Of a DNA stretch of 16,771 nt, positions 1 to 15,332 are shown one piece after another. The DNA is from an uncultured Bacilli bacterium (lineage in GTDB: Bacteria > Bacillota_I > Bacilli_A > RF39 > UBA660), in contig CANQYA010000006.1 of assembly GCA_947627965.1 (NCBI GenBank), positions 1 to 16,771 of the forward strand, written 5' to 3'. The notes under the pieces were generated by a model. The model was not told the DNA's origin. It did no database searches and saw nothing but the letters and a program-made list of their open reading frames with translations. Made by a program: the position numbers and the translations under genes. How positions within the stretch are numbered: the stretch's first letter is position 1; every line of letters begins with the position of its first letter.

Positions 1-194
1 GCCCCTTCTACTTCTACTCTGCCCATTCCCGCGTGTACGATTGGTACGTCAACTCGACTGGGCTCTTGTACAATACGGTCGTCTGGAGTGCTCTCGGTGT
101 GAGACCTGTCATAAATTTATCTTCTAATATTGGTATAACTAATGCTACTCAAACTGGTACTATAGACAACCCTTACATCATTAAAACCAACTAA
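1..194 (+). CDS. C-terminal end of a surface/C-type-lectin-like protein (partial, possible DGR target)
   Basis: The 5' end lies outside the window. The reading frame starts at base 3 and ends at TAA 192-194, giving 63 residues. The tail carries W-S-A-L-GVRPVINL followed by a short linker and NPYII, the ending I associate with DUF6273 and formylglycine-enzyme/C-type-lectin-like domains of Firmicute surface proteins. Bases 1-110 are 55% GC (61/110) with only 16 A. Bases 111-194 return to 40% A (34/84), like the rest of the window. Half of the 36 codons in 3-110 end in C (TTC, TAC, GTC, CTC, TCC, CGC), which is foreign to this genome. This adenine-poor, NNC-rich pattern stopping just before a conserved tail is what a diversity-generating retroelement variable region looks like. 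No reverse transcriptase or template repeat is present in the window. The stop overlaps the end of the convergent regulator gene by three bases. The domain call is moderately sure; the DGR role is inference. Confidence 0.6.
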   Translation, partial: PFYFYSAHSRVYDWYVNSTGLLYNTVVWSALGVRPVINLSSNIGITNATQTGTIDNPYIIKTN

Positions 195-613
195 TTATTT
201 TTAATATTATTATTGAATTTCTTTATATTATTAATAGTTACTTTATCAATAAAATGTTCTATTTTCTCAACTTGTTCTAATTTAAAATATTCTTTATTTA
301 AGTATTTAAAAAAATACATTAAAGTATTATGTCTCTCTAAATAGAATTTACCTAATCTTTTTCCTTTATTAGTAAGAGAAACATGACCATATTTTTTAAA
401 ATTAACAATACTTAATTTATTTAATTTATTAATCATTTTTGATACAGAAGATGGTTTTACATTAAGAAAAAGAGATAAATCTTTAATAGTTATTTCTTTT
501 TCTTTTTTAGTATTCCTATAAATCATCTCAATATAATCTTCCATTGTCTCTGTAATTATTTCTTTATTTTTTCTTTTATAACCAGTTAAAGTATAGTATT
601 TTTCATCAAACAT
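191..613 (-). CDS. DtxR/MntR-family metal-dependent transcriptional repressor
   Basis: A 140-residue cytoplasmic regulator expected to bind Fe(II) or Mn(II) and repress metal uptake genes. The N-terminal winged helix covers roughly residues 24-90 (TMEDYIEMIY, then a recognition helix with PSSVSKMINKL). The dimerisation and metal-binding helices follow. The residues matching the MntR metal ligands can all be placed: D26, E29, H95, E116, E119 and H120. There is no C-terminal SH3-like domain, so it has MntR rather than full DtxR architecture, with about 20 extra residues at the N-terminus. The start is supported by AAGGAG (minus strand, 623-628) nine bases upstream. It is divergent from feoA-feoB, and an 18-bp operator-like palindrome lies between them, so it most likely controls feoAB and perhaps itself. 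Whether the effector is iron or manganese cannot be read from the sequence; the neighbours favour iron. Confidence 0.88.
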   Translation of the reverse strand: MFDEKYYTLTGYKRKNKEIITETMEDYIEMIYRNTKKEKEITIKDLSLFLNVKPSSVSKMINKLNKLSIVNFKKYGHVSLTNKGKRLGKFYLERHNTLMYFFKYLNKEYFKLEQVEKIEHFIDKVTINNIKKFNNNIKNN

Positions 614-654
614 AAGCCCATTCTCCTTATAGGTTTATACATATAGTATATTAG

Positions 655-672
655 AGTTAGATTAAGGAAACT
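655..672. promoter_or_regulatory. Operator-like palindrome for the DtxR/MntR regulator
   Basis: AGTTAGATTAAGGAAACT is an interrupted palindrome (AGTT-nnn-TTAA-nnn-AACT). Its right half, TTAAGGAAACT, matches the half-site I recall for MntR/DtxR-type operators in Bacilli. It sits between the divergent regulator and feoA genes, just downstream of a possible plus-strand -10 (TATATT, 647-652). Binding there would block transcription of feoAB. The palindrome is seen directly; the assignment to this regulator is inference. Confidence 0.55.
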
Positions 673-707
673 TCTTTCCATAAATATATGAGGAGGATTA
701 AAGAATT

Positions 708-947
708 ATGAAAGAAGAAAGATTATGTGATATTCCTCTTGGTAAAAAAGTTATTGTTGAAAAGATTTTATCAGAGGGAAGTATCAGAAGAAGATTATTA
801 GATATTGGTTTATCTAAAGGAACTATGGTTTATTCTACTTTAAAAAATCCTGGTGGTAATTTAGTCGCATATATGATAAGAGGAGCTTTAATAGCTATTC
901 GTAATGACGATACAAAAAATATATTAGTAAGGGGTTATAGTGAGTGA
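708..947 (+). CDS. feoA: FeoA, ferrous iron transport accessory protein
   Basis: A 79-residue protein of the usual FeoA size. It forms a small SH3-like beta-barrel that works with the FeoB GTPase at the inner face of the membrane. Family features are the early L-x-D-I-P-x-G segment, the R-R-x-L-L-D-I-G-L-x-x-G-T core at about residues 27-39, and the final IAIRNDD-type strand. AGGAGG at 691-696 lies 11 bases before the ATG. The stop TGA (945-947) overlaps the GTG start of feoB, so the pair is translationally coupled. Probably repressed when metal is plentiful by the divergent DtxR/MntR protein. Confidence 0.92.
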   Translation: MKEERLCDIPLGKKVIVEKILSEGSIRRRLLDIGLSKGTMVYSTLKNPGGNLVAYMIRGALIAIRNDDTKNILVRGYSE

Positions 948-3028
948 AAAAGATAAAAGAAGGAAAAGTTAAGATTGATAAAGTTATTGCTTTAGCAGGT
1001 AATCCTAATGTTGGAAAAAGTACAGTTTTTAATGCTTTTACTGGTTTAAATCAACATACAGGTAACTGGCCAGGTAAAACAGTTAGTAATGCTAGTGGGG
1101 TTATGAAGTATAAAGATAATTATTTTAAAATATATGATTTACCTGGTATATATTCCATATTAGCTCATTCAGAAGAAGAATTAGTTGCAAGAGATTTTAT
1201 TTGTTTTGGCGATGCTGATTTAACTGTTGTAGTATGTGATGCTTGTACTTTAATGCGTAATTTAAATTTAGTTTTACAAATAACCGAAATAACACCTAAT
1301 GTTATCGTTTGTCTTAATTTAATCGATGAAGCTAAGAAGAAAGGTATTAATATTGATATAGATTATTTAAGTAATTTATTAGGGCTAAAAGTTATACCTA
1401 CTACAGCAAGAAGTGGTAAAGGTTTAGACGAATTAGCTAGTTGTATTGAAAAATACAGTTATTATCAAAATAAAAAAACTATTAAAATAAAATATGATAA
1501 TAGAATAGAAACAGCCATCAAGATAGTTACTAAAGAATTAAATAAAAAAATAAATAACAAATTAAATACAAGATGGACAGCTATTAATTTAATGAAAAAT
1601 GATACCCAATTAATAGAAAGTATTAATAATTATTTAGGATATAATCTTATCGATAAAGAAATAGAGAAAGCTATTAATACTAGTAGAGAATATTTAATAA
1701 ATAATGGTATTAAAATAGAAGAATTAGAAGATTATATTGTTGAAGCTATAAATAAAGAAGCCGAAGTAATAAGTAATTTAGTAACTAGTTATGGTAAAAT
1801 AGATTACACTAAAAAAGATAGATGTATAGATAAAGTACTAACTAATAAATTTACTGGTATTCCTATAATGTTACTTTTATTAGCTTTTATTTTTTGGTTA
1901 ACAATTAAGGGTGCGAATTATCCATCAGAAATACTTAATAAACTACTATTTAGCATAGAAGATAATTTATTTGTCTTTTGTAAAAGTTTTTTACCCACTT
2001 TTTTAAGTGATTTATTAATACATGGTGTCTATCGTACTTTAGCTTGGGTTGTATCAGTAATGTTACCACCAATGATGATTTTTTTTCCACTTTTTACTTT
2101 GTTAGAAGACTTAGGTTATTTACCACGAATTGCTTTTAATGTGGATAAAATATTTAAAAAATGTTCTTCTTGTGGTAAACAGGCTTTAACTATGGCTATG
2201 GGTTTTGGTTGTAATGCTGTAGGAGTAAGCGGTACACGTATAATTGATTCGAAAAGGGAAAGATTAATTGCTATAATTACTAATAGTTTTGTTCCCTGTA
2301 ATGGTCGTTTTCCTACTTTAATAGCTATTATTACTATGTTTATAGTAGGAGTAGGGGTTAATAATTCTTTATTAAGTGTTTCTATTTTAATGATAGTAAT
2401 ATTATTAGGTATTTTTATGACTTTTTTAGTATCACATTTATTATCTAAAACAATTCTAAAAGGAATACCATCGTCATTTACTTTAGAATTACCACCATAT
2501 CGTAGACCTCAAGTAGGAAAAGTAATTGTCAGATCTCTTCTAGATAGAACAATCTTTGTCTTAGGTAGAGCTGTTAGTATTGCTATTCCTGCAGGAGTTA
2601 TTATTTGGGTAATGGCTAATTTAAAAATAGGGGATCTTTCAATCTTAAATCATACTGCTAACTTTTTAGATCCAGTAGCTAATTTACTTGGTATGGATGG
2701 TGTTATTCTTCTTGCATTTATTTTAGGATTTCCTGCTAATGAAATAGTAATACCTATTATTCTTATGAGTTATATGGCAACAGGTAATTTAACTGATTTT
2801 AGTAATTTATACGAATTAAAAAATATTTTAGTTGCCAATGGTTGGACAATATATAGAGCTATTTCTGTAATGTTATTTTGCTTATTCCATTTCCCTTGTT
2901 CTACTACTTGTCTTACTATTAGAAAAGAAACTAAATCAAATAAATGGACATTAATATCGATGTTAATACCAACTCTTTGTGGTATATTAATCTGTTTTAT
3001 TTTCAATTTAATAGTTAGATTAATATAA
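944..3028 (+). CDS. feoB: FeoB, ferrous iron transporter with N-terminal GTPase
   Basis: A 694-residue Fe(II) uptake permease in the cytoplasmic membrane. The GTPase domain shows G1 GNPNVGKS (19-26), T-G-N-W-P-G-K-T in switch I, G3 DLPG (65-68), G4 NLID (125-128) and a later A-R-S-G-K-G-L-D-E-L segment near G5. A charged helical linker follows to about residue 300, then a polytopic membrane part with the FeoB hallmarks GFGCNAVGV and SFVPCNGRFP and a late H-F-P-C-S-T-T-C segment. Length is normal for the family. The start is GTG at 944, overlapping the feoA stop, with AAGGGG (929-934) as ribosome site. No feoC follows; the operon ends at a symmetrical terminator directly after the TAA. Confidence 0.95.
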   Translation: MKKIKEGKVKIDKVIALAGNPNVGKSTVFNAFTGLNQHTGNWPGKTVSNASGVMKYKDNYFKIYDLPGIYSILAHSEEELVARDFICFGDADLTVVVCDACTLMRNLNLVLQITEITPNVIVCLNLIDEAKKKGINIDIDYLSNLLGLKVIPTTARSGKGLDELASCIEKYSYYQNKKTIKIKYDNRIETAIKIVTKELNKKINNKLNTRWTAINLMKNDTQLIESINNYLGYNLIDKEIEKAINTSREYLINNGIKIEELEDYIVEAINKEAEVISNLVTSYGKIDYTKKDRCIDKVLTNKFTGIPIMLLLLAFIFWLTIKGANYPSEILNKLLFSIEDNLFVFCKSFLPTFLSDLLIHGVYRTLAWVVSVMLPPMMIFFPLFTLLEDLGYLPRIAFNVDKIFKKCSSCGKQALTMAMGFGCNAVGVSGTRIIDSKRERLIAIITNSFVPCNGRFPTLIAIITMFIVGVGVNNSLLSVSILMIVILLGIFMTFLVSHLLSKTILKGIPSSFTLELPPYRRPQVGKVIVRSLLDRTIFVLGRAVSIAIPAGVIIWVMANLKIGDLSILNHTANFLDPVANLLGMDGVILLAFILGFPANEIVIPIILMSYMATGNLTDFSNLYELKNILVANGWTIYRAISVMLFCLFHFPCSTTCLTIRKETKSNKWTLISMLIPTLCGILICFIFNLIVRLI

Positions 3029-3054
3029 AAAAACTGAAAATTTTCAGTTTTTTT
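3028..3054. terminator. Bidirectional intrinsic terminator between feoB and the rhodanese gene
   Basis: A perfect palindrome centred on 3040/3041: an A-run, ACTGAAAA, TTTTCAGT, and a T-run. It gives a stem with a U-tract in either direction. It begins at the feoB stop and reaches the stop of the convergent rhodanese gene (3053-3055), so one element serves both genes. Confidence 0.85.
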
Positions 3055-3340
3055 ATGTCAATTTATATTCACTATAACCACCTAATATATTTATTACATT
3101 ATATCCTTGTTTAGTTAAATTATTACAGGTAGCTTTACTTCTTGAACCATGTTCACAATATATATAATAGGTATCATTTTTATTAAGATAAATGCTAGGA
3201 TTAGTTAATAAAAAATTCATTGGAATATTAATCGAAGTAGGAATACTACCTAAATTAAATTGGTAATTATCTCTAATATCGATAATTTTGGCTTTAGGAA
3301 TTAATACTTTTAGTTCTGTTATTGTAATGTCCTTAGACAT
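3053..3340 (-). CDS. Single-domain rhodanese-like protein
   Basis: A 95-residue cytoplasmic protein of the PspE/GlpE-like single-domain rhodanese type, expected to handle sulfane sulfur through a persulfide on its active cysteine. The entry segment IIDIRDNYQFNLGSIPTSINIP (about residues 19-40) gives the typical D-x-R and G-x-I-P-x-x-x-N-I-P features. The active loop is CEHGSRS starting at C62, and GYNVINILGGY closes the fold. GGAGGG (minus strand, 3348-3353) precedes the ATG, and a TATAAT (minus strand, 3359-3364) lies just upstream. It is separated from the upstream ABC-F gene by a terminator, so it is probably a single-gene transcript. The physiological sulfur acceptor is unknown. Confidence 0.85.
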   Translation of the reverse strand: MSKDITITELKVLIPKAKIIDIRDNYQFNLGSIPTSINIPMNFLLTNPSIYLNKNDTYYIYCEHGSRSKATCNNLTKQGYNVINILGGYSEYKLT

Positions 3341-3375
3341 CTATTATCCCTCCATAGTATTATATGCTAGAAAAG

Positions 3376-3409
3376 AAAAAAAATTGCTTATTTATTAGCA
3401 ACTTTTTTT
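3376..3409 (-). terminator. Intrinsic terminator of the ABC-F gene
   Basis: On the minus strand an A-run and GTTGC pair with GCAA and a run of eight T, with a TAATAAATAA loop. The left arm lies inside the last codons of the ABC-F gene and the stop codon is in the loop. It separates the gene from the rhodanese downstream. Confidence 0.75.
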
Positions 3410-4982
3410 TCTTCTAAATAATCGTCATAAGTTGTTTTACGGTCAATAAAGCCATCACTAGTTAATTCGATTATTCTATTAGCAATAGTTTGGGTAAATT
3501 GATGGTCATGGGAAGCAAATAAGAGTTCTCCTTCATATTTAATTAGACCATTATTTAAAGAGGTAATGCATTCCAAATCTAAATGGTTAGTTGGTTCGTC
3601 AAGAATTAAGAAGTTGCCGTTTTCTAACATACATTTAGCAAACATACATCTTGCTTTTTCCCCACCTGATAAGACAGTAACATTTTTAAAAACTTCGTCA
3701 CCTGAAAATAACATTCTTCCTAAAAAACCACGTAAAGCAGTCTCGTCATCTATTTTATAAAAGTGACTAATCCATTCTATAATTGTTTCATCATTTTTAA
3801 AATAATTAGAATTATCGACTGGGTAATAAGTAGGAATAACTGTTTTACCCCAAGTAACATGACCACTATCAGGTTCTAATTCACCCATTAATATTTTAAA
3901 TAAAGTCGTTTTAGCTAAATCATTATCCCCAATAAAAGCTATTTTATCATTCTTTTGAACAGTAAAACTAACATTATTTAATACTTTTTTTCCATCTATT
4001 GTTTTATTTAATTTAGTAACCATCAATATTTCTTTACCAGTTTTATTTTCAATTTTAAAATCAATAAAAGGATATTTTCTCGAAGAAGGAACAATTTCTT
4101 CTAATTTAATATTTTCTAATATTTTTTTTCTTGATGTTGCCTGTCTTGACTTAGAAGCATTAGCTGAGAAACGAGCGATAAATGATTGTAATTCTTTTAT
4201 TTTTTCTTCTTTCTTTTTATTGGATTCTTTCATTTGTTTTAATAATAATTGACTAGATTCATACCAAAAGTCATAGTTACCAGCATATATTTTAATTTTA
4301 CCATAATCAATATCGACAATATGTGAACATACTTTGTTTAAAAAGTGACGATCGTGAGATATAACAATTACTGTATTATTAAAATCGATTAAAAATTCTT
4401 CTAACCAATTAATGGCTTCAATATCTAGTCGTTAGTAGGTTCATCTAAAAGTAAGATATCAGGGTTACCAAACAAAGCTTGAGCTAGTAATACTTTAACT
4501 TTTAACTTATTAGGAATATCTTTCATTAAAGAATAGTGAAAAGTAGTATCTATTCCTAAATTATTTAATAAGTTTCCAGCTTCACTTTCAGCCTCCCACC
4601 CATTAAGTTCACTAAACATAGCTTCTAAATTTCCTAATCTTATCCCATCTTCGTCAGTAAACTCAGTATGGGAATAAAGTTCTTCTTTTTCTTTCATTAT
4701 TTGATAAAGTTTAGTATTTCCCATAATGACTGTATCAATAACTTTTTCATTATCATACTCGTAGTGATTTTGCTTTAACATAGCAATTCTTTCACCTTTA
4801 GTAATAATTATTTCACCATGAGTTGTTTCTATCTCTCCTGATAATAATTTTAAAAAAGTACTTTTACCCGCACCATTCGCCCCTATAAGACCATAACAAT
4901 TACCAGGAGTAAACTTTAAATTAACATTTTCAAATAAAGTCCTTTTACCAAAAGAAAGACTTACATTATTAACTTGTATCAT
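3388..4982 (-). pseudogene. ABC-F family ATPase (YkpA/YbiT type), broken by a one-base deletion
   Basis: The full span would encode about 531 residues, the usual size for this ribosome-associated ABC-F group. Residues 1-185 (from ATG 4982, GAGGTG site at 4988-4993) carry ABC1 with Walker A GANGAGKST (34-42) and end at LLLDEPTND, followed by TAG (4425-4427). Adding one base between 4427 and 4428 continues the protein as L-D-I-E-A-I-N-W-L-E-E-F-L..., then ISHDRHF and the N-Y-D-F-W-Y-E-S linker, which joins without further error to the second half (free-standing reading frame 3388-4233). ABC2 has the odd P-loop GDNDLAKTT, which I recall as normal for this subfamily, then VLSGGEKARC and LDEPTNHLDL. 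ABC1 lacks a clear LSGGQ: IPNKL stands at about 156-160. A possible promoter on the minus strand is TTGCTT (5028-5033), 17 bases, TAAAAT (5005-5010). The break may be a true pseudogenisation or an assembly error. Confidence 0.85.
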
Positions 4983-11177: not shown

Positions 11178-12326
11178 ATGAAAAAAATTATAATTATATT
11201 ATTGATTGGTATTCTTCTTTTTCCAATTTATGTAAATGCTGATGAAGATTTATTAACGAATGCTAGAAGTGGCGTTTTAATGGAAGCATCGACAGGGGAA
11301 ATATTATATGAAAAAAATAAAAATGATAAAGTAGCAGTAGCATCTATGACGAAAATGGTTGCCCAAATAATCATTTTGGAAAATATAGAGAATGGTAACT
11401 TATCTTGGGATGAAAAAATAAAAGTTAGTAGTAATGCATCAGGAATGGGTGGTTCACAAATTTGGTTACAGACTGGTGAAGAAATGAGTGTAAGAGATTT
11501 AATGAAAGGAATTACTATGGCAAGTGCGAATGATGCCACCGTAGCCTTAGCTGAACGCATTGCTGGAACCGAAACAGCTTTTGTTAAGCAAATGAACGAT
11601 AAAGTAAAAGAATTAGGTTTAAAGAACACTAATTTTGTTAATTCAACTGGTTTAGATGAAGACAATCATTATTCTTCGGCATATGATATGGCTATTATTG
11701 CTAAAGAATTATTGAAACATGACGAAATTTTAGAAATATCTGGTGTCTACGAAGATTATATTCGCCAAGATACACCTAATAAATATTGGTTAGTTAATAC
11801 TAATAAACTAGTGCGTTTTTACGAAGGAGCAGATGGTTTAAAAACTGGTTTTACTGATAATGCTGGTTACTGCATGGCTGTTACTGCTAAAAGAGATGGT
11901 ATGCGTCTAATTGCTATCGTCTTAGGAGAAGCTAAAGGTTCAGTAAGAAACGAAGAAACACAACAATTACTTGACTATGGCTTTAATATTTATAAAGTAG
12001 ATTTAGTAAAAGAAAAAGGCGATATAATTACAACTATCGATATTGATAAAGGAACCAAAGACCAAGTAAACACTACTATTAATGAGGATATAAGTGTTTT
12101 AAAAAAGAAAAGTGAAATAAGTAAAACCTATGATATAGAAACTGAAATTAATGATATTAAACTTCCTTTAAAAAAAGGTGACATAATAGGTAAAGTATTA
12201 GTTAAAGATAATGGTAAAATGATTAAAGAAGTAGATTTAATAGTAGATGAAGACGTTTTTAAACTAGGATATTTTAAAACTTTATTAAATACTTTAAGAA
12301 ATATTTTAACAGGAGATATTATTTAA
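11178..12326 (+). CDS. dacF: D-alanyl-D-alanine carboxypeptidase, DacF type (peptidase S11)
   Basis: A 382-residue secreted penicillin-binding protein. Signal peptide residues 1-21 end in V-N-A before D-E. The three serine-transferase motifs are in order: S56-M-T-K59, S116-A-N118 and K222-T-G224. A beta-rich C-terminal domain (PBP5_C type) occupies about 270-365, and the final amphipathic stretch with L-G-Y-F-K-T-L-L-N-T-L could anchor it to the membrane. It removes terminal D-Ala from pentapeptides. In B. subtilis dacF lies directly before spoIIA and acts in cortex modification; the same position here supports the name. AGAGGTGA just upstream is the ribosome site. Unlike a read-through arrangement, a terminator closes it before the next gene. 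Confidence 0.9.
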   Translation: MKKIIIILLIGILLFPIYVNADEDLLTNARSGVLMEASTGEILYEKNKNDKVAVASMTKMVAQIIILENIENGNLSWDEKIKVSSNASGMGGSQIWLQTGEEMSVRDLMKGITMASANDATVALAERIAGTETAFVKQMNDKVKELGLKNTNFVNSTGLDEDNHYSSAYDMAIIAKELLKHDEILEISGVYEDYIRQDTPNKYWLVNTNKLVRFYEGADGLKTGFTDNAGYCMAVTAKRDGMRLIAIVLGEAKGSVRNEETQQLLDYGFNIYKVDLVKEKGDIITTIDIDKGTKDQVNTTINEDISVLKKKSEISKTYDIETEINDIKLPLKKGDIIGKVLVKDNGKMIKEVDLIVDEDVFKLGYFKTLLNTLRNILTGDII

Positions 12327-12393: not shown

Positions 12394-12446
12394 TGTCGAA
12401 AATAGTCATATGAAAAAATTGACTTCTTTTGTCGAATAAGTATAAA
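12394..12446 (+). promoter_or_regulatory. Control region of the spoIIA-like operon: two Spo0A-box-like sites and a sigma-A-like promoter
   Basis: TGTCGAA occurs at 12394-12400 and again at 12430-12436, the second as TTTTGTCGAATAA, matching the Spo0A box core (TGNCGAA). TTGACT (12419-12424), 16 bases, TATAAA (12441-12446) is a good sigma-A promoter with the second box in its spacer. A further possible -10, TATTAT (12464-12469), would put that box near -43, an activating position. G-T-C-GAAT at 12431-12437 also resembles a sigma-H -10, but no sigma-H -35 was found. The boxes are seen directly; the regulation is inference. Confidence 0.55.
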
Positions 12447-12492
12447 TTTCAAATAATTTGTTCTATTATTTAATAAGTGAGGAGAGTAGAAT

Positions 12493-12831
12493 ATGCTACA
12501 TATTGAAATTGAATATAAAAGGGGAATTCTCTTTGCAAGATTAATAGGAGATATTAATAACAATACAATTAATAATTTAGAAGTTATTGATAATATGATT
12601 ACTAAAGCAGGTATTAAGTATCTACTTCTTAATTTTGAAAAAGTAAGTATTATTTCTAATAATCAAATAGAATTTATTATTGATAAATATAAAAAGTTAA
12701 TTGGTCAAGATGGAAAGTTATTGATATGTGGATATTATAACAATGCTAAATTAAAAATAAATATCATCGACAACGATAAAATATATTTATCTACTAACGA
12801 ACTAAATGCATTTAATATAATTAATATTTAA
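12493..12831 (+). CDS. spoIIAA: SpoIIAA-like STAS-domain protein lacking the phosphorylation serine
   Basis: A 112-residue single STAS domain in the position of spoIIAA, before sigF. The segment L-L-L-N-F-E-K-V-S-I-I-S-N-N-Q-I-E-F-I-I aligns with the SpoIIAA strand and helix that carry D57-S58-S59-G60. Here these are S55, N56, N57 and Q58, so the serine phosphorylated by SpoIIAB is replaced by Asn and the DSSG turn is lost. The G-K-L-L-I-C-G strand that follows is typical. The known role of SpoIIAA is to release sigma-F from SpoIIAB. With no spoIIAB alongside, this copy cannot run the classical phosphorylation cycle; it might bind a partner constitutively or be a remnant. GGAG (12481-12484) fits the ATG; sigF follows after 11 bases. 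The STAS call is firm; orthology rests mainly on position. Confidence 0.68.
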   Translation: MLHIEIEYKRGILFARLIGDINNNTINNLEVIDNMITKAGIKYLLLNFEKVSIISNNQIEFIIDKYKKLIGQDGKLLICGYYNNAKLKINIIDNDKIYLSTNELNAFNIINI

Positions 12832-12842
12832 GGAGAAAGAAA

Positions 12843-13490
12843 ATGAAGAATGATTATAGTAATATGATTTATAAAATTGCCCATAAGTATAGTTTTGGAA
12901 ATGATTTTGAAGATTTATGTCAAGTAGGACAGATAGGATTAATGAAAGCACTAGAAAATTACAATAAAGATTTAGGTAGTGATTTTGCATCATATGCCTA
13001 TATATATATTAAAGGGGAAATATTAAAATATATAAAAGAAAATAGAGTTGTAAAAATAAGTAACGAATTATTTACTTTAAATAAAGCAATTAATCATGCT
13101 AAAGAAGTATTAACTCAAAAATATATGAAAGTACCAACTAATAGTGAATTATCTCTTTTCTTAGAAATACCTATAGAAAAAATAAATGAAGCAGTAATGG
13201 CTAGTGAATACGTTAAAAGTCTAGATTACGTTTTAAATGAAGATGACGAAAAAGAATTAACTTTATATGATTCAATAAAATACGAAGAAAAAGGATACGA
13301 TGAGAGAATCCTCGATTTAAAAGAAGAAATTAATACTTTAGATGATAATGAGAAAAAACTTATTTATGCTAGGTACTACGAAGATAAAAGTCAACAAGAA
13401 ACATCAGAATTACTAGGTATTAGTCAAGTACAAGTATCCCGTAATGAAGCTAAAATATTAACTAAACTAAGAAACAAATTAGTTAGTTAG
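12843..13490 (+). CDS. sigF: Sporulation sigma factor of the SigF/SigG group
   Basis: A 215-residue group-3 sigma-70 factor, expected to direct forespore transcription. Region 2.2 is DLCQVGQIGL (24-33), followed by an F-A-S-Y-A-Y-I-Y-I-K-G-E-I-L-K-Y-I core region. Region 3 covers about 71-125 (VKISNEL...P-T-N-S-E-L). Region 4.2 ends with LLGISQVQVSRNEAKIL (190-206), which closely follows the SigF recognition helix. It is about 40 residues shorter than B. subtilis SigF (about 255), nearly all at the N-terminus ahead of region 2.2. AAGGAG just before the ATG and the tight junction with the STAS gene argue against an earlier start. The order dacF - STAS - sigma - spoVA supports SigF over SigG. 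The anti-sigma gene spoIIAB, normally between the STAS gene and sigF, is absent. Confidence 0.85.
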   Translation: MKNDYSNMIYKIAHKYSFGNDFEDLCQVGQIGLMKALENYNKDLGSDFASYAYIYIKGEILKYIKENRVVKISNELFTLNKAINHAKEVLTQKYMKVPTNSELSLFLEIPIEKINEAVMASEYVKSLDYVLNEDDEKELTLYDSIKYEEKGYDERILDLKEEINTLDDNEKKLIYARYYEDKSQQETSELLGISQVQVSRNEAKILTKLRNKLVS

Positions 13491-13544: not shown

Positions 13545-13988
13545 ATGGAAAAAAAAGAATATAAGAAAATAGTCGATCGTCATAAACCGACTGAAAAAAG
13601 AGTTCAAAATGCCATCATTAGCTTTTTAATAGGGGGAATAATAGGTGCTCTAGGACAAGGATTAATCGATTTATATTCTAATCTTTTAGATATTTCAAGT
13701 AAAGATGCATCAACTTTTATGATTGTTACTTTAGTCTTTATCGCATCACTATTTACAGCTTTAGGCTTCTTTGACAAATGGGTTACTTTTGCTAAATGTG
13801 GACTAATTATTCCCATAACTGGTTTTGCTCATTCGATGACTAGTGCAGGAATTGAATACCGTAAGGAAGGACCTATCTATGGATTAGGAATGAATATTTT
13901 TAAATTAGCTGGTTCAGTTATCTTATATGGAATAGTTGCTGCTTGGTTATTTGGAACCATTAGGTACTTGTTGATGGGAGGAATATAA
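13545..13988 (+). CDS. spoVAC: SpoVAC, spore dipicolinate channel membrane protein
   Basis: 147 residues. A basic N-terminus with Y-K-K-I-V-D-R-H-K-P is followed by about four membrane helices. Family features include I-G-G-I-I-G-A-L-G-Q-G, A-L-G-F-F-D-K-W and I-P-I-T-G-F-A-H-S-M, the last echoed in SpoVAE. SpoVAC is a membrane component of the SpoVA channel that moves calcium-dipicolinate into the developing spore and out on germination. AGGTGAT lies just before the ATG. It is 54 bases after sigF, in a gap holding a sigma-F-like promoter, and the GGGAGG ribosome site of spoVAD lies inside its 3' end. spoVAA and spoVAB, which precede it in B. subtilis, are not here, as in the clostridial C-D-E arrangement. 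Confidence 0.93.
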   Translation: MEKKEYKKIVDRHKPTEKRVQNAIISFLIGGIIGALGQGLIDLYSNLLDISSKDASTFMIVTLVFIASLFTALGFFDKWVTFAKCGLIIPITGFAHSMTSAGIEYRKEGPIYGLGMNIFKLAGSVILYGIVAAWLFGTIRYLLMGGI

Positions 13989-13989
13989 T

Positions 13990-14985
13990 ATGACTTATAA
14001 ATATGATAATGTCTATATAGGAGGTTATTCAACCGTAGTAGGACCATATGAAAAAGATGGACCATTAACAAGAGGTTTTGATAAATGTTATGACAATTTA
14101 TATAATGGTGAGAAAACTTGGGAACAAGCTGAGGTAAGACTTCTAACTGATAGTATTGATATTTTATTAAAGAAAGTTCAAAAAGATAAAAAAAATATTG
14201 ATTTATTAATATCAGGAGACCTATTAAATCAAGTAACTTCATCTAGTTATGCAGCTTTAAAATTTGATATTCCTTTCTTTGGTATTTATAGTGCTTGTGC
14301 TTCAAGTGCGGAAGGAATTATTTTAGGAGCAAGCTTAATCGATGGGGGAAAAATAAAAAATTGTATTTCGGCTACTTCTTCTCATAATATGTCTAGTGAA
14401 AAACAATTTAGAAATCCTGTTGAATATGGAGCTCCTAAACCTAAAACAGCAACTTTTACCTCGACAGGAGGAGCTAGTATTTATTTAACTAAAGATAAAA
14501 CTAATATAAGAGTTGAATCTTCTACTATCGGTAAAGTAGTTGATATGGGACAAAATGATCCTTTTAATATGGGAGCAGTAATGGCTTGTGCTGCGGGCGA
14601 TACTATTTATGAACATTTAAAAGCTTTAAAAAGAGAACCAGATTATTATGATTTAATATTAACAGGAGATTTAGGAGTATATGGTAAAGAAATATTAATA
14701 GACTATATGCATACTGAATATGGTATTGATATTAGTGATAATTACGATGATGCAGGTACAATGTTATATGATTTATCTAGACAAGAAGAAGTTATGGCAG
14801 GAGGATCGGGTCCTGTATGTAGTGCTTTAGTTAATTATGCTAAAATATTACCTAAAATGGAACGTGGAGAATTAGAACGAGTTTTATTTGTACCAACAGG
14901 AGCTTTATTTTCACCAACTTTCGTTTATCAACACGAAAATATTAATTCTATTGCTCATGCGATTAGTTTGGAGGCGGTAAAATGA
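13990..14985 (+). CDS. spoVAD: SpoVAD, dipicolinate-binding thiolase-fold protein
   Basis: 331 residues, the usual length. SpoVAD has a thiolase/ketoacyl-synthase-like fold and binds dipicolinic acid for uptake through the SpoVA channel at the inner spore membrane. Visible features are G-G-Y-S-T-V-V-G-P-Y-E-K-D-G-P-L at the N-terminus, W-E-Q-A-E, the G-I-Y-S-A-C-A-S-S-A-E-G nucleophile-elbow segment with C103, T-A-T-F-T-S-T-G-G-A, and A-G-G-S-G-P-V-C-S near residue 275. GGGAGG (13976-13981) within spoVAC fits the ATG one base after the spoVAC stop. Its end overlaps spoVAE by four bases (ATGA), so all three genes are co-translated. Confidence 0.95.
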   Translation: MTYKYDNVYIGGYSTVVGPYEKDGPLTRGFDKCYDNLYNGEKTWEQAEVRLLTDSIDILLKKVQKDKKNIDLLISGDLLNQVTSSSYAALKFDIPFFGIYSACASSAEGIILGASLIDGGKIKNCISATSSHNMSSEKQFRNPVEYGAPKPKTATFTSTGGASIYLTKDKTNIRVESSTIGKVVDMGQNDPFNMGAVMACAAGDTIYEHLKALKREPDYYDLILTGDLGVYGKEILIDYMHTEYGIDISDNYDDAGTMLYDLSRQEEVMAGGSGPVCSALVNYAKILPKMERGELERVLFVPTGALFSPTFVYQHENINSIAHAISLEAVK

Positions 14986-15332
14986 TATATTTATATTCCT
15001 TCCTTTTTGCAGGATTTATATCGATGTTAGGACAATTAATATTAGATAATACTAAATTATCAGCAGGACATATTACTAGTTTATTTGTAATAATAGGAGC
15101 CGGTTTAGATACTTTCAGTATTTATGACAAAATAATAGCGTATGTCGGAGGAGGAGCTTTAGTACCTATTACTAGTTTTGGACATTCTCTTATCCATGGG
15201 GCTCTTGCTAAAGCCCAAGAATATGGCTTAATTGGTATTTTAACAGGTATGTTTGATTTAACCGCATCAGGTATTACATCAGCAATTATATTTACCTTTA
15301 TCTTTAGTTTATTTTGTAAACCAAAGAACTAA
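14982..15332 (+). CDS. spoVAE: SpoVAE (SpoVAEB type), spore channel membrane protein
   Basis: 116 residues with about four hydrophobic segments, forming part of the SpoVA dipicolinate channel with SpoVAC. The family features G-Q-L-I-L-D-N-T-K-L-S-A-G-H, D-T-F-S-I-Y-D-K and P-I-T-S-F-G-H-S-L-I-H-G are all present, followed by a final helix. GGAGG in the last spoVAD codons fits the ATG, and the gene overlaps spoVAD by ATGA. It is the last gene of the sporulation operon. A terminator follows after three bases. spoVAF and related later genes are absent. Confidence 0.92.
   Translation: MIYLYSFLFAGFISMLGQLILDNTKLSAGHITSLFVIIGAGLDTFSIYDKIIAYVGGGALVPITSFGHSLIHGALAKAQEYGLIGILTGMFDLTASGITSAIIFTFIFSLFCKPKN

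Follow-up and report, generated by a model that had tools for sequence, protein, structure and literature searches.

sigF without SpoIIAB in the sampled order RF39: an operon with a SpoIIAA-derived STAS gene that has mostly lost its phosphoserine

The window, that is, the whole stretch of 16,771 nucleotides that was analysed, comes from a genome of the order RF39 (family UBA660), a group of uncultured bacteria of the gut. It carries a gene for a STAS protein of 112 amino acids (12493..12831, plus strand), followed on the same strand by sigF, which encodes an RNA polymerase sporulation sigma factor of 215 amino acids (12843..13490). The list of open reading frames and a reading of the sequence confirmed what the initial annotation had described, namely that the two genes are 11 bases apart (12832..12842) at the place where spoIIAB is expected, and the reading frames leave no room for that gene. 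A ribosome-binding-like AAGGAG stands ahead of the sigF ATG. Upstream of the STAS gene, a gene for a D-Ala-D-Ala carboxypeptidase (11178..12326, plus strand; carboxypeptidase family matches, all below cut-off) occupies the dacF position; we take it to be dacF, and the arrangement to be the dacF-spoIIA-spoVA synteny. Downstream, again on the plus strand, lie spoVAC (13545..13988; TIGR02838, 154.6 bits for a cut-off of 164), spoVAD (13990..14985; NF006160, above cut-off) and spoVAE (14982..15332; TIGR02839, 125.2 bits for a cut-off of 131.1). Given the carboxypeptidase on one side and the three spoVA genes on the other, the locus can be read as the ancestral spoIIA-spoVA locus minus spoIIAB. The sigF product matched TIGR02980 (E = 1.3e-51) and TIGR02885 (E = 5e-45), both below cut-off (154.1 bits against a curated 321.45 for TIGR02885); its assignment is based on synteny, between the spoIIA and spoVA genes, and on the order-wide family.

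Elsewhere in the window, an ABC-F-like ATPase (family assigned by eye) appears interrupted, being split into two consecutive frames on the minus strand (3388-4233 and 4425-4982), and at 191-3028 an MntR-like regulator (profile match) and a FeoA/FeoB-like pair for iron transport (recognised by eye) are divergently oriented. Two species of the genus carry tandem genes for large sigma-70-family proteins, with a long amino-terminal stretch before an RpoD-like core: the pair of the window genome (L276, G000:C8:3500-8500; 443-1933 and 1936-3387, minus strand) encodes 496 and 483 amino acids, and the other (L277, G004:C33; 1128-2618 and 2629-4980, minus strand) 496 and 783 amino acids.

The STAS protein of the window derives from SpoIIAA. 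It matched the SpoIIAA profile TIGR02886 with E = 7e-10 (38.8 bits, short of the curated cut-off of 114.75), and the best five of its six PDB sequence matches were SpoIIAA chains. An AlphaFold model (pLDDT 86.5, pTM 0.83, 91 sequences) had SpoIIAA 1th8_B as its best PDB fold match in Foldseek, where RsbV and RsbS chains were also matched. In the alignment, S55-N56-N57-Q58 (12655..12666, plus strand) replaces D57-S58-S59-G60 of SpoIIAA, so that Asn56 stands at the position of the phosphoserine. The initial annotation was thus right about asparagine in the window, but S-N-N-Q is not a general motif, as it was found in two of 71 aligned STAS rows, the window and one congener. What is shared across the order is the loss of Ser58 itself, with D57 kept in 62 and G60 in 59 of the 71 rows. 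Nor is the asparagine fixed across relatives, as an alignment had been proposed to reveal: position 58 is serine in all 44 proteins encoded with SpoIIAB in the operon and in 9 of 91 encoded without it (96 rows minus five from loci with duplicate-identical sigma-F), and N, E, I, L and M are also common among the latter. The nine serines are near the level left by drift, and may be in use there. One SpoIIAB-less STAS protein, that of locus L119, retains D-S-S-G and has asparagine at its Glu21 position.

The switch formed by SpoIIAA, SpoIIAB and SpoIIE exchanges partners so as to hold sigma-F silent until asymmetric division, and it is to SpoIIAB and SpoIIE that textbooks ascribe the confinement of sigma-F to the forespore. 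The window genome is 67.65% complete in 124 contigs, and its silence on SpoIIAB therefore means little by itself. A profile search (E <= 1e-15; positive on the B. subtilis control) was carried out on an even sample of 288 genomes from the order (102 genera), and SpoIIAB was found in none of them, which rules out an assembly artefact or a loss in a single genome. Among 38 genomes searched against the curated cut-off, none of the 23 of the family, window genome included, had a SpoIIAB above it, and none of the 23 matched the SpoIIE-family phosphatase profile (PF07228, E <= 0.01), while five class-level outgroups (G024, G026, G029, G032 and G036) each had both a SpoIIAB above cut-off and a PF07228 match. 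In the order, PF07228 was matched in seven of the 288 genomes, strongly in four. A search for spoIIAB and spoIIE had been called for at the outset; neither turned up in the window genome or its family, and neither did the combination of a spoIIAB elsewhere with a second, serine-bearing SpoIIAA, the window genome having a single STAS match at its 67.65% completeness. Kinase and target residue have gone together, as had been proposed (no SpoIIAB in 288 genomes, Ser58 in 9 of 91 proteins without it). The broader suggestion of a rewired control of sigma-F was likewise supported, and 281 of the 288 genomes had no SpoIIE-family phosphatase match.

Could an unrecognised kinase and phosphatase encoded elsewhere still run partner switching? 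GHKL ATPases are present in most genomes, strong PP2C matches occur in four of 288, and nine STAS proteins keep the serine. Within the family, however, matches to the SpoIIAB and HATPase_c_2 profiles are weak, and most of those to SpoIIAB lie in frames longer than 300 residues. Four listed matches in short frames (153-217 residues) were considered as hidden SpoIIAB candidates; by eye they look like pieces of histidine kinases, and their scores of 24-33 bits fall short of the cut-off of 135. The target serine is gone in 82 of 91 STAS proteins and the Glu21 position is relaxed. Of the seven PP2C loci (L096-L102), two of the four strong ones, L096 and L099, were read, and both are RsbU/RsbW-like PP2C-HATPase cassettes with no sigF beside them; they form a distinct system, resembling a partner switch, that a few members of the order possess. 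The explanation by a hidden kinase and phosphatase is very improbable, and it is nearly certain that the sampled order has lost partner switching by phosphorylation. As to their surroundings, the L096 cassette is adjoined by its own serine-bearing STAS gene and that of L099 lies beside an AMP-ligase-like gene.

Since kinase and phosphatase have been lost, the sigma-F switch must be controlled in another way. A rival reading is that the order no longer sporulates and has redeployed sigma-F for another programme, so that the safety switch became unnecessary. SpoMAG assigns 0% spore-formers to RF39 metagenome-assembled genomes, in the part of that report available to us (PMC12536801), and the genomes are small. 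One family genome (G009) has no sigF-like match (its best is a sigA-sized frame of 362 residues), no SpoIIR and a Spo0A below cut-off. Against this stand spoVAC, spoVAD and spoVAE in the window and, in the family, Spo0A (above cut-off in 21 of 23 genomes, and in 22 of 23 at E <= 1e-30), SpoIIR matches in 22 of 23 (above the curated cut-off only in G019) and additional sigma factors of the sporulation type. Across the order, the sigma-F profile (E <= 1e-35) was matched in 271 of 288 genomes, some of which have as their only hit one of about 1e-50 that may be sigG. Field et al. 2024 predict that RF39 forms spores (PMC10868615). In another study, in which microbiota described in the title as spore-forming were applied topically to eggs, the successfully transplanted taxa included RF39 sequence variants (PMC7028958). 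We therefore regard a loss of sporulation as unlikely.

The residues that served SpoIIAB have drifted. Glu21 of SpoIIAA is described as the residue that would clash with Asp148 of sigma-F on SpoIIAB (PMC7340262, citing Masuda 2004). The corresponding position is acidic (E or D) in all 44 proteins with SpoIIAB, compared to 23 of 91 without; the window has Asp20. In sigma-F (B. tequilensis numbering), E149 is E in 42 of 44 proteins with SpoIIAB and in 29 of 113 without, while D150 is D or E in 43 of 44 with SpoIIAB, and 67 of the 113 proteins without it carry K, L or I there; the correspondence of E149/D150 to Asp148 of the solved complex is approximate, the chain index being offset by -4. Because many sigma-F columns are relaxed, this second drift is only supportive and not specific. 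A short sigma-F amino terminus was also considered as a consequence of SpoIIAB loss and rejected, since four of five SpoIIAB-bearing outgroups are short too (181, 184, 197 and 223 amino acids; the fifth has 241).

Other STAS columns became newly constrained (G11 in 87, R16 in 85, F14 in 84 and E7 in 80 of 91 sequences) or more constrained (K or R at position 10 in 81 of 91, G41 in 64 of 91). The model has strands at residues 2-9 and 12-20, which would probably bring E7, F14 and R16 onto the same face of the first beta hairpin, in a patch situated away from Ser58. The STAS gene might nevertheless be a relic, kept since it is short and sits between the promoter and sigF, and the drift of Ser58 and of the SpoIIAB-facing Glu21, together with at least ten changes of STAS state (see below), would agree with this. 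However, nine columns are at least 90% conserved over the 91 sequences, the gene is present in 225 of 288 small genomes, and dN/dS lies well below 1 (NG86, ten within-genus pairs: 0.07-0.28 for STAS and 0.04-0.27 for sigF, compared to the lower 0.04-0.06 for spoVAC and 0.02-0.10 for spoVAD), these values being rough because dS is near saturation. The STAS protein is under purifying selection, and we judge it quite improbable that its gene is a relic.

We then turn to the promoter. Two Spo0A boxes precede the operon of the window on the plus strand: a distal TGTCGAA (12394..12400), which matches the 0A-box core as given in PMC3485338 (partial text), and a proximal TTGTCGAA (12429..12436) at a conserved position. 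A -10-like TATTAT (12464..12469, plus strand; promoter class predicted) begins 34 bases past the start of the proximal TGTCGA core. Within 300 bases upstream of the operon, TTGTCGAA was present at 89 of 111 SpoIIAB-less loci, compared with a mean of 0.9 and at most 4 loci over 40 shuffles. The TGTCGA core was present at 104 of the 111, the other seven being without it (40 shuffles: mean 3.4, maximum 8), and in 101 of the 104 it lay 53-93 bases ahead of the start. A second box was found 26 bases further upstream at 27 loci, and 36 bases further at four, including the window. Over the 104 loci, a T-A-T/A-A-T-T element is conserved 34 bases downstream of the box (its first position is T in 92%, its second A in 91% and its final one T in 92%). 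Genome-wide, TTGTCGAA is enriched slightly at most (63 occurrences against 51 of the reversed pattern). At the sequence level these loci show what a Spo0A-activated promoter would present, a TGTCGAA core at constant spacing from a -10 element, and the synthesis of sigma-F very likely depends on Spo0A.

It had also been suggested that sigma-F came under transcriptional control in place of the lost switch. The promoter that would provide such control is not a new replacement: of the five class-level SpoIIAB-bearing outgroups, three (L031, L033 and L035) have TGTCGA at 61-71 bases (L032 and L034 have no site), and these three, as well as the SpoIIAB-bearing Erysipelotrichaceae record L209, have a -10-like element at +34 by eye. 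A compensating innovation was accordingly rejected, and since SpoIIAB-bearing outgroups have it, the Spo0A-type promoter is older than the loss of spoIIAB. Among the 44 SpoIIAB-bearing named loci, a 0A-like site was found in 31 and a strict sigma-H-like promoter in 11; the nearest 0A-like site lay 97-137 bases from the start in 24 of the 31, and at 53-93 bases only in L209. For B. subtilis, the available text of PMC3485338 reports no perfect 0A box at spoIIAA and spoIIE.

STAS and sigF keep a constant order. The STAS profile was matched in 225 of the 288 genomes, which represent 85 of the 102 genera, and the gene lies directly upstream of sigF in all 71 STAS-bearing loci examined, where the sigma-F profile match begins at -10 to +72 bases relative to the STAS stop. 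The 71 comprise 18 of the 22 family sigF loci (L001-L022) and 53 of 60 further loci, of which 52 were chosen for a STAS match (one per genus, among the matches listed; of the weaker matches, L160 was inspected) and eight because none was listed. Of 80 named loci from a genome collection, 44 were in the order STAS-SpoIIAB-sigF and 36 lacked SpoIIAB (25 with STAS, 11 without). The 36 are records of metagenome-assembled genomes or uncultured bacteria, Candidatus Onthousia faecigallinarum among them, loosely labelled as uncultured Bacilli, Tenericutes or Mollicutes and, in a few cases, as Erysipelotrichaceae, Clostridiales, Lactobacillales or Mycoplasma.

In a sigma-F tree built from 119 rows (91 with STAS, 22 without, six outgroups), the STAS state changes 12 times within the SpoIIAB-less group, and at least ten changes are forced by well-supported branches, sigF being kept. 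The tree is a quick one without bootstraps and counts changes, not their direction; because the outgroups have SpoIIAA, we take the changes to be losses. Eleven STAS-less loci were read upstream (L007, L008, L010, L013, L158, L159 and L161-L165); in these no STAS frame remains and a box-bearing promoter precedes sigF. The other named STAS-less loci were scored by profile only, and L167 was counted as STAS-less though near a contig edge. Three genera (g9, g40 and g67) contain both STAS-bearing and STAS-less species, which form natural pairs.

These data bear on the possibility that the STAS protein regulates sigma-F directly, binding it either to restrain it weakly, as an anti-sigma factor, or to stabilise it, and replacing SpoIIAB without phosphorylation. 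The constant order of near-overlapping genes, the purifying selection, the new hairpin patch away from Ser58 and the loss of SpoIIAB, the only known partner of the STAS protein, argue for it, but gene order may be mere inheritance, and at least ten changes of STAS state, read as losses, came without loss of sigF. No sigma-F column convincingly separated STAS-bearing from STAS-less genomes (among about 215 tests, the smallest P was about 0.001), the newly conserved sigma-F sites being equally conserved in STAS-less genomes, and no STAS-sigF fusion was seen among the best 120 of 7995 homologues (lengths 207-231). The loss pattern, the sigma-F columns and the lack of a fusion argue mildly against direct STAS-sigma pairing being essential. 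Direct regulation is possible, though doubtful. Its more specific form, in which the STAS protein would bind sigma-F through the hairpin patch and, together with transcription driven by Spo0A, make up a forespore switch free of kinase and phosphatase, is a tentative proposal that we hold to be rather unlikely.

The explanation we favour, with somewhat more confidence than doubt, combines a dismantled partner switch, sigma-F production driven by Spo0A and a STAS protein acting as an accessory independent of phosphorylation. The SpoIIAA-SpoIIAB-SpoIIE switch has been dismantled across the order, most simply in its ancestor, and the SpoIIAB-serving residues of SpoIIAA and, less specifically, those of sigma-F have drifted. 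sigF stays in its operon, ahead of which a consensus Spo0A box and a -10-like element stand at constant spacing; there Spo0A~P may activate a sigma-A-type promoter and so set the timing of sigma-F, which would be either active once made or restrained by another factor. The STAS protein is probably dispensable without being a relic, which fits a co-expressed accessory that adjusts sigma-F output without phosphorylation. It would bind its partner through the first hairpin, on which most of the new conserved residues are predicted to lie (E7, K/R10, G11, F14 and R16). The first candidate for this partner, itself a doubtful one, is sigma-F, and a division or RNA polymerase protein is the alternative. 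Because at least ten state changes, read as losses, left sigF in place, the STAS protein appears helpful rather than essential. This explanation leaves the forespore specificity of sigma-F unaccounted for, and the analysis turned up no partner for the STAS protein.

Most genomes of the order keep sigF and none with SpoIIAB was found, which shows that compartment-specific activation of sigma-F can be dropped or achieved otherwise. Sister genomes with and without STAS are natural variants for testing sigma-F control. spoIIAB is unsafe as a marker of sporulation in metagenomes; in the available part of the SpoMAG report (PMC12536801), it is among nine genes present in all 63 metagenome-assembled genomes called spore-formers, and RF39 has 0% spore-formers. 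The gene profile found here is that given for RF39 by Field et al. 2024 (PMC10868615, main text), in which spoIIAB and spoIIE are reduced or absent and the group is predicted to be spore-forming. That main text has no occurrence of spoIIAA or sigF, and it does not describe the retained serine-less STAS gene, the promoter or the place of this gene beside sigF. No earlier description of SpoIIAA without SpoIIAB was found in the literature searched, which covered few subscription journals.

Compared with the spoIIA switch of Bacillus and Clostridium, the RF39 operon has in common the synteny with a dacF-like gene and spoVA, the STAS fold, sigma-F, SpoIIR, Spo0A and the Spo0A boxes; it differs in that SpoIIAB, the phosphoserine and, in the family, SpoIIE are missing and the SpoIIAB-facing positions are relaxed. 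The single-domain STAS antagonists RsbV and RsbS act with the kinases RsbW or RsbT. The RF39 protein shares their fold, as the Foldseek matches indicate, whereas the window locus has no gene for either kinase; RsbW is also described in PMC7340262. SypA of Vibrio fischeri, as described in the sources available to us, is likewise a single-domain STAS protein whose mechanism is as yet undefined, but it is regulated by the serine kinase SypE and controls biofilm formation.
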